64,000 nt of DNA from the NCBI RefSeq assembly GCF_017916275.1, contig NZ_JAFMST010000008.1:110025-174024 (forward strand), in the 5' to 3' direction. The position numbers and the translations under genes were made by a program. Under the pieces are notes generated by a model. The model was not told the DNA's origin, did not search any database, and worked only from the letters and a program-made list of their open reading frames with translations. Source of the stretch: Rubellimicrobium arenae (lineage in GTDB: Bacteria > Pseudomonadota > Alphaproteobacteria > Rhodobacterales > Rhodobacteraceae). Shown here one piece after another: positions 20,933 through 48,700 of this stretch (positions are counted from its first letter, which is position 1; the number at the start of each line of letters is the position of its first letter).

Positions 20933-20948
20933 AACCCCTCCGGGGGTT
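20933..20948 (+). terminator. Hairpin after DUF3429 gene
   Basis: Perfect 6-bp stem AACCCC/GGGGTT with a 4-nt TCCG loop, starting 5 bases after the DUF3429 stop. There is no T run, so termination would be weak or factor-assisted. Its last two bases are the first two of the FnrL-type box that follows. Confidence 0.5.
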
Positions 20949-20960
20949 GACGCAGGTCAA
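20947..20960 (+). promoter_or_regulatory. FnrL-type box TTGACGCAGGTCAA
   Basis: Perfect inverted repeat TTGAC-N4-GTCAA, one base per half-site from the FNR/FnrL consensus TTGAT-N4-ATCAA. It lies 53 bases before the ATG of the small HicA-like gene and downstream of the DUF3429 hairpin, so it most likely controls the small gene in response to oxygen. Confidence 0.65.
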
Positions 20961-21013
20961 GGACGCCGACCGATTCCCATGCGGGAGTGGGCCATCACTA
21001 CGGGAGACCCACC

Positions 21014-21277
21014 ATGAACCACAGCCATCGCAAGGTCCTGCACAGCCTCTTTGCCCATCCTATCCCCAGCAACCTCCATCTGAACGACGTGGAGAACGTG
21101 CTGCGGGACCTCGGGGCCGAAGTGGGCCACACGGGCCATGGCCGCTTCAGCGCGACGCTGGCAGGCCAGCATGTGACCTTGCACGGCGGCAATCACGGAT
21201 TGTCCAAGGATGAGGTCGCCCAGGTCCGCAAGGCGCTCGAGGCCGCCGGGGTCGCACCCGCCGACTACCCGGTCTGA
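21014..21277 (+). CDS. Small HicA-like protein
   Basis: 87 residues (MNHSHRKVLHSLFAHPIPSN to VAPADYPV). The pattern of a helix, then VENVLRDLGAEVGHTGHGRFSATLAGQ, then a His-Gly turn (LHGGNHG), resembles the small HicA/dsRBD-like RNA-binding fold, but no HicB antitoxin gene is next to it. GGGAG at 21002-21006 is a good ribosome binding site. It stands alone between a hairpin and rnhA and has an FnrL-type box upstream, so it is likely an oxygen-responsive gene of unknown function. Confidence 0.72.
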   Translation: MNHSHRKVLHSLFAHPIPSNLHLNDVENVLRDLGAEVGHTGHGRFSATLAGQHVTLHGGNHGLSKDEVAQVRKALEAAGVAPADYPV

Positions 21278-47424: not shown

Positions 47425-47473
47425 CTTGCCTCCGGCGGCCGGGCGACAACCGGCGCAGCGACAGGGGGACAGC

Positions 47474-48178
47474 ATGACCATCCATATCGGGGCCGAGCCG
47501 GGCGCGATCGCGGACACCGTCCTCCTGCCCGGCGATCCCCTGAGGGCGCAATGGGCGGCCGAGACCTTCCTGCAGGATGCGGTCTGCGTGAATCGCGTGC
47601 GGGGGATGCTGGGCTTCACCGGCACATGGCGGGGGCACCGGGTGACGATCCACGGGTCCGGCATGGGGATGCCCTCCCTGTCGATCTATGCGAACGAGCT
47701 GATCCGCGACTATGGCGCGCGGACGCTGATCCGCGTGGGCTCGGCGGGCGGCTTCCAGCCCCACACCCGGTTGCGCGACGTGGTGCTGGCGCAGGCGGCC
47801 TGCTCCGTCTCCACGCCGTCCTCGACCCTCCTGCGGGAGCTGAACGTCGCCCCCATCGCGGACTGGGGGCTGCTGGCCGCCGCGCACCGTGCGGCCGTGG
47901 CGCGGGGGACCCGCGTCCATGTGGGCAGCATCCACTCCTCGGACACCTTCTACACCGAACGGCCCGATCACACCGAGCAGTTGATCCGTCACGGCGTCCT
48001 GGCCGTGGAGATGGAAGCGGCGGAGTTGTACCTCGTGGCCGCCCGGCACGGCGCACGGGCTCTCGCGGTTCTCACCATCAGCGACCATGTCGTGACCCAC
48101 GAGGCCCTGGGCGCCCCCGAGCGCGAGCGGAGCTTTGGCGACATGATCGAGATCGCCCTTCAGGCCGCCTTCGCCTGA
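47474..48178 (+). CDS. deoD: Purine-nucleoside phosphorylase, DeoD type
   Basis: Phosphorolysis of purine nucleosides to base and (deoxy)ribose 1-phosphate. 234 residues: [30 protein letters not shown], the phosphate loop [28 protein letters not shown], and [14 protein letters not shown] with the conserved Met-Glu, then TISDHVVT. Length matches hexameric trimer-of-dimers enzymes. Start fixed by the conserved N-terminus. Confidence 0.95.
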
Positions 48179-48272: not shown

Positions 48273-48286
48273 TTGATCTGGGTCAA
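48273..48286 (+). promoter_or_regulatory. FnrL-type box TTGATCTGGGTCAA
   Basis: Nine of the ten conserved bases of TTGAT-N4-ATCAA. It is 57 bases before the DUF6455 start. A -10-like TAGGTT at 48308-48313 would place the transcription start near 48320, putting the box centre at about -41, the class II position of FNR-activated promoters. Confidence 0.65.
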
Positions 48287-48343
48287 ATCAACGCGCCCCG
48301 ATCCGCCTAGGTTCATCCCAGCTTCCAGCAAGGAGTCCCAGGG

Positions 48344-48700
48344 ATGACCCACCTCACCGAACGCCTCGACGCCTGGCGCGAGCGCCGCCAGCGCGAACGC
48401 GAGATCGCCAACATCACGCCCGAGGAGATCGCCGACTATGGCCTGAGCCGGGCCGAGTTCCGCGACCTCGCCCTCATGCCGTCCGAGCAGATCGCCCGGA
48501 TGGGGACGATGGCCCGGGTCAACGGCCTCGCGCCCGAGCGGCTGGACGACGACCGCGCGCTCCAGATCGCGGCGGCCCTGACCTGCGCCCATTGCCACGA
48601 GCAGCGGCGCTGCCGCGATGCGATCCGCGACGGCGCCACGCGCGAGGACACGGACTTCTGCCCCAACGCCGAAACCTACCGGATGCTCGCCGCCGAATAG
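48344..48700 (+). CDS. DUF6455 family Cys-motif protein
   Basis: 118 residues. N-terminal region with ITPEEIADYGLSRAEF, as in DUF1127-related small proteins, then MARVNGLAPERL and a four-cysteine set CAHCHEQRRC and DFCPN, ending ETYRMLAAE. I recall this arrangement as DUF6455. The cysteines could bind metal or respond to redox, which fits the upstream FnrL box. Function unknown. Confidence 0.78.
   Translation: MTHLTERLDAWRERRQREREIANITPEEIADYGLSRAEFRDLALMPSEQIARMGTMARVNGLAPERLDDDRALQIAAALTCAHCHEQRRCRDAIRDGATREDTDFCPNAETYRMLAAE

Follow-up and report, generated by a model that had tools for sequence, protein, structure and literature searches.

A small gene in the 64-kb window, that is, the whole stretch of DNA that was analysed, lies behind a palindrome of the FNR/FnrL type and encodes a protein with four conserved cysteines. 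This raises the question of what the protein is, which regulator would read the box, and whether box and gene belong together in other bacteria as well. The best overall explanation, to which we would give a probability of roughly 0.7, is that the box is an FnrL site in a near class II promoter, which would be activated at low oxygen and drive expression of a DUF6455-group protein.

The gene, its box and the predicted product

The first-pass annotation had placed an FnrL-type box in front of a four-cysteine DUF6455 gene and had pointed to a -10-like hexamer, TAGGTT, between them. Both were found, and the features of the locus are as follows.

47471–48178, forward strand: upstream purine nucleoside phosphorylase gene (PNP_UDP_1), the neighbour in 8 of 8 orthologous loci
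48273–48286, forward strand: FNR/FnrL-type box TTGATCTGGGTCAA, of the pattern TTGA-N6-TCAA, kept at 8 of 8 orthologous loci
48308–48313, forward strand: -10-like hexamer TAGGTT, 21 nt 3' of the box; TAnnnT clusters 21–23 nt after the box in relatives
48330–48335, forward strand: ribosome-binding site AAGGAG, 8 nt 5' of the ATG, recognised by eye
48344–48700, forward strand: DUF6455-like long-form protein of 118 aa, from Pfam comparison and alignment
48359–48457, forward strand: residues 6–38, an Arg-rich helical N-terminus (predicted helix 2–22), DUF1127-like below threshold
48584–48667, forward strand: Cys signature C81-x2-C84-x5-C90-x15-C106-x-N108, from alignment with canonical members

The family label given by the annotation proved weaker than its description of the cysteines. 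Against the DUF6455 profile (PF20056) the window protein scored 22.9 bits, below the gathering cut-off of 23.7 (E = 9e-5), and it is therefore termed DUF6455-like here; the four-cysteine part of the claim (residues 81, 84, 90 and 106) held. A Pfam scan of the orthologues other than L006 placed L002, L003 and L007 above the cut-off, at 26.8, 28.0 and 29.6 bits, and L004 and L005 under it, with no match for L008. NCBIfam gave no match to the window protein.

Identity to canonical DUF6455 members is 16–27%, over an alignment that spans the C-terminal two thirds, in which C81, C84, C90, C106 and N108 are invariant. The family-wide signature, C-x2-C-x5-C-x(14-24)-C-x-N, includes the window protein, and the arrangement C-x2-C-x5-C followed by C-x-N was present in 130 of the 132 proteins counted, the misses being L008 and L206. 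The window protein and its gene thus share with the family the Cys/Asn signature, a helical core and an FNR box, but differ from canonical members in about 35 extra N-terminal residues, in low identity, and in being a lone gene rather than part of a tandem array. The product would be a divergent, long-form member of the DUF6455 group.

The predicted model of the window protein is all-helical (pLDDT 92.2, pTM 0.73), and that of a canonical protein from Ruegeria pomeroyi is also helical (pLDDT 86.2, pTM 0.75). Foldseek returned no PDB match to either model at E <= 0.001, PDB sequences searched by profile yielded no relative either (best E 0.081), and for the canonical model VIA-align 2 had no hit with Z >= 2; null results of this kind carry no weight against any particular fold. 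For the window model, the best hit of VIA-align 2 had a Z of only 3.6 (53 residues, rmsd 3.1) and was to chain 8buu_Q of a 70S ribosome, presumably bL20. The Arg-rich, helical N-terminus resembles DUF1127 proteins such as CcaF1 and YjiS, and a passage of PMC10253847 describes CcaF1 as binding RNA. Membership of DUF1127 (PF06568) was considered and dropped: the window protein scored 17.9 bits against a cut-off of 23.3, and every relative scanned was also below it, the best at 16.2.

The invariant spacing of the cysteines is Fe-S-like, and we regard a metal or redox role for them as putative. Two iron-sulphur systems offer comparisons. In E. coli FNR the cluster is held by C20, C23, C29 and C122, according to a passage of PMC5398030, and the window protein has the same motif spacing and order of cysteines; unlike members of the Crp/FNR family, it shows neither a cNMP-binding domain nor a Crp helix-turn-helix among Pfam matches with E up to 1. 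WhiB-like (Wbl) [4Fe-4S] proteins are likewise small and helical, with four cysteines including C-x2-C-x5-C. In WhiB1 the trio is C37, C40 and C46, and the fourth cysteine, C9, precedes it (passage of PMC5741622), whereas in the window protein the fourth follows the trio; GVWGG is absent and there is no Wbl match. The comparison with Wbl proteins is a works-like analogy only.

With these analogies in mind, the four cysteines may ligate a metal centre, with [4Fe-4S] somewhat likelier than Zn. We would put the case for an Fe-S cluster a little short of even. Zinc in the same four positions is a possibility that we rate as rather unlikely, and we take the same view of the wider proposal of a small protein that binds nucleic acid or protein and in which the cysteines form a structural zinc site and no redox centre. 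Four cysteines in a small helical protein would suit zinc equally, the Arg-rich N-terminus of the window protein is in keeping with this proposal, and weak Pfam matches among 52 members include B-box in 3 of the 52, zf-CXXC in one and a ligase C4 zinc finger in one (best E 0.058). The C-x2-C-x5-C spacing shared with the iron-sulphur proteins FNR and WhiB1 weighs on the other side, as does the tie of the gene to low oxygen, a condition in which an oxygen-labile cluster would survive, although neither point is decisive.

On the preferred reading of an FnrL-controlled DUF6455-group protein, this small helical protein could act in the cytosol as an adaptor or accessory factor during low-oxygen adaptation. 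A bolder version, which we consider improbable, would make DUF6455 an alphaproteobacterial equivalent of the Wbl family: a four-Cys [4Fe-4S] module that stands alone, is induced by FnrL and, being labile to O2/NO, works as a second tier of switching on a partner. This partner might be RNA polymerase, a respiratory assembly factor or RNA. Paralogues in tandem behind a single box would in that case form hetero-oligomers, and the Arg-rich arm of the long form could bind RNA. If the Cys set does bind an Fe-S cluster, a widespread second oxygen- or NO-responsive protein would lie below FnrL in marine roseobacters.

The regulator that would read the box

FNR proteins keep their Fe-S cluster intact when oxygen is low, and in this form they bind DNA and activate promoters. 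The corresponding route here would run from low oxygen to an intact FnrL cluster, to FnrL at the box, and to a switched-on promoter of the 118-aa gene. The gap between box and ATG is 57 nt (48287–48343), and with the start of transcription placed from TAGGTT, 21 nt after the box, the centre of the box is predicted to lie at about -40.5. The purine nucleoside phosphorylase gene upstream runs in the same direction and ends at 48178, and the DUF429 gene downstream of the 118-aa gene faces the other way, so the box most plausibly serves the 118-aa gene, which would be monocistronic and transcribed from a near class II promoter. It is very probable that the gene is under the control of an FNR-type protein.

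The genome encodes two FnrL-type proteins with C-x2-C-x7-C, one (L216) on contig C5 beside the ccoN locus and the other (L212) on contig 22. The two are 49% identical. Across the genome, the pattern TTGAT-N5-TCAA has nine distinct sites, compared with one for a reversed control pattern. By names read from sequences, five are at ccoN/USP, ccoG, pseudoazurin, hemG-like and hydrogenase-maturation-protease-like genes; the further four are possibly inside argC, at an unknown gene pair, at an SDR/aldo-keto-reductase pair and at the 118-aa gene. The other predicted boxes of the genome thus include known low-oxygen genes. The regulatory reading of the first-pass annotation is supported by these genes, by the presence of FnrL-type proteins, and by the conservation of the box at near-fixed spacing close to the predicted class II position.

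Because FNR, FixK and DNR recognise similar sites, as stated in a passage of PMC2908626, FnrL can be named only as the likely reader, and we infer both that FnrL rather than Dnr/NnrR binds the box and that binding activates. The same similarity of sites lends some weight to a different proposal, that an NO-responsive regulator of the Dnr/NnrR type is the main reader of the box and that the protein has its place in denitrification or in defence against NO. The genome does carry nirK (C35:167621) and, at C35:166072, a Crp/Fnr protein that lacks the Cys motif, and the DUF6455 gene of Mesorhizobium is near NnrS or nirK. We nevertheless judge this proposal to be quite unlikely. Among 150 Rhodobacteraceae genomes, DUF6455 does not track nirK, the copper nitrite reductase gene and the one nitrite reductase gene compared, being present in 9 of 20 nirK genomes (p = 0.33), which favours an oxygen signal over a denitrification signal. 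An FnrL orthologue (E <= 1e-50) is found in 132 of these 150 genomes, including 86 of the 86 with DUF6455, and DUF6455 occurs in 0 of the 18 without FnrL (Fisher p = 4.5e-8 for co-occurrence, uncorrected for shared ancestry). The perfect boxes of the genome at the ccoN/USP, ccoG, hemG-like and pseudoazurin genes also speak against a box devoted to NO.

Control by FnrL would place the gene in familiar company. The TTGA-N6-TCAA palindrome, the predicted near class II spacing and the FnrL in the genome are those of the FnrL/FnrN regulon of Rhodobacterales, and the other boxes at ccoN/USP and ccoG resemble the regulons described in parts of PMC4634722, PMC4263372 and PMC2908626. The regulon tables and passages concerned do not name DUF6455. 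They do list unnamed hypothetical proteins, and set 2905 in a passage of PMC2908626, a "hypothetical protein" with no R. sphaeroides locus, could be the DUF6455 family. In the open-licence PMC literature, one paper that uses the name DUF6455 was found (PMC11819568), where it is one entry in a table of Azospirillum genes that respond to ethylene; the passage with this table makes no link between DUF6455 and FnrL.

One genome of our set, G081, has no DUF6455 match and is apparently that of R. sphaeroides 2.4.1: its FnrL gene (C4:2441345-2442049) lies next to the ccoN/USP peak that FnrL ChIP in R. sphaeroides gave at 2440200-2440799 (table in a passage of PMC4263372). The ChIP table would then be uninformative on the family, and the apparent absence of DUF6455 from a main FnrL model would help to explain why the family was not noticed there.

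Conservation of the box at related genes

A search for orthologues of the 118-aa gene in 61 genomes found them in eight: the window's own, six of the seven other same-genus genomes, and one of another genus. The first-pass annotation had made its reading depend on conservation of the box upstream of orthologues. The box was kept in all eight, at a near-constant distance and with the same phosphorylase gene upstream; six copies are perfect and two have one mismatch (a TCAT end for TCAA), and with the most likely start codons taken, the box starts 68–79 nt 5' of the start codon in 8 of 8. At the seven same-genus loci, conservation is 0.96 for the columns of the half-sites, compared with 0.49 in the 40 nt upstream and 0.57 downstream.

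The protein itself is less constant. Values of dN/dS among six orthologues range from 0.26 to 0.97 (15 comparisons), which are high and indicate a loosely constrained protein whose sequence apparently changes quickly around a fixed Cys signature. In the same-genus orthologue L008 the third Cys and the Pfam match are gone but the box and the neighbour gene are still present, which suggests that the site can decay.

Within the window, TTGA-N6-TCAA occurs twice, against 0.12 expected, and one of 100 shuffles reached two; a looser TTGAT-N4-ATCAA with up to two mismatches occurs 11 times against 4.9 expected (three of 100 shuffles reached 11) and is nearer to noise. Short palindromes do arise by chance, and one of the nine genome sites (L013) may be intragenic, but a chance palindrome is contradicted by conservation in 8 of 8 orthologues, and a box belonging to another gene sits poorly with the co-directional phosphorylase gene that ends at 48178 and with the window's frames and Pfam matches, where no likely divergent gene was seen, so that we consider either idea very improbable.

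The second box of the window, at 20947–20960, is 53 nt from its ATG (20961–21013), and the two box-to-ATG distances of 53 and 57 nt given by the annotation are both correct. The small gene behind it (21014–21277) has a product with no Pfam match. The second box is perfect in all five same-genus loci, the window's own among them, 67–69 nt 5' of the ATG, and a distant homologue (L236) lacks a box.

Beyond the orthologues, a Pfam profile search, which overlooks divergent versions and among them the gene of the window, found DUF6455 in 86 of 150 Rhodobacteraceae genomes. Upstream of the 30 best-scoring loci, a perfect TTGA-N6-TCAA was present in 28 and the TCAT version in two. A further 60 leading or separate genes, picked by hand and in some genomes two at a time, gave 41 perfect boxes, 15 with one mismatch and four without a box; a control interval farther upstream gave 0/60 perfect and 6/60 one-mismatch sites. 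In another collection of 80 named loci, 77 boxes are perfect and three have one mismatch, compared with 0/79 perfect and 7/79 one-mismatch sites in the control interval, and outside the 250 nt 5' of DUF6455 genes only six sites occur in 486 kb of this set. The three sets overlap in genomes, and the counts cover 75 of the 86 DUF6455-positive genomes, the remainder being G008, G017, G025 (seen through the orthologue search), G061, G087, G094, G117, G134, G154, G174 and G181.

A putative FNR box is close to universal, then, at the DUF6455 loci examined in Rhodobacteraceae. Box, spacing, conservation and family-wide association, like the invariant Cys/Asn signature, are observed in the sequences themselves. 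A TAnnnT peak 22 nt after the box (35 of 80 loci in the named set and 11 of the 30) has the spacing of a predicted class II promoter centred at -41.5. The presence of the box in front of most relatives examined would place a poorly known family in the response to oxygen shortage, and a family of no assigned function gains a testable physiological setting.

Downstream of the leading gene, at least one further DUF6455-like frame was found in 43 of the 80 named loci (65 frames in total by distinct stop codon), which makes a tandem array behind one box common. In many roseobacters such an array holds two or three different paralogues preceded by a single FNR box. The DUF6455 pair of G065, near chromosome position 2,781,771-2,782,372, also carries a perfect box; this genome appears to be D. 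shibae, as its FnrL at 664359 fits Dshi_0660.

Among 289 genomes of the class, DUF6455 was found in 15, of which 12 are outside Rhodobacteraceae, at 14 places, one of which (L206) is probably a false match. In the 400 nt 5' of the match, eight of the 14 have a perfect box and two others a box with one mismatch, compared with no perfect box in the control interval of any of the 14. Plasmids also carry the gene. In two Mesorhizobium ciceri plasmids a perfect box precedes a DUF6455 gene by 65 nt, and this gene is surrounded by those for fixJ, USP, Crp/Fnr and pseudoazurin. In two Thioclava plasmids the box lies 5' of the first gene of a DUF6455 pair, and the region upstream of a Pseudosulfitobacter plasmid copy (L052) has no box.

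Some further arrangements were observed. In the two M. ciceri plasmids (L048 and L049), perfect or one-mismatch boxes precede USP, DUF6455 and DUF1858 genes beside fixJ and Crp/Fnr. Three proteins from other orders (L197, L199 and L205) have an apparent membrane helix N-terminal to the Cys domain, with a perfect box in two of the three. Finally, two convergent DUF6455-like genes (L204 and L209, G221:C1 near 5040222-5040868) each have their own perfect FNR box.
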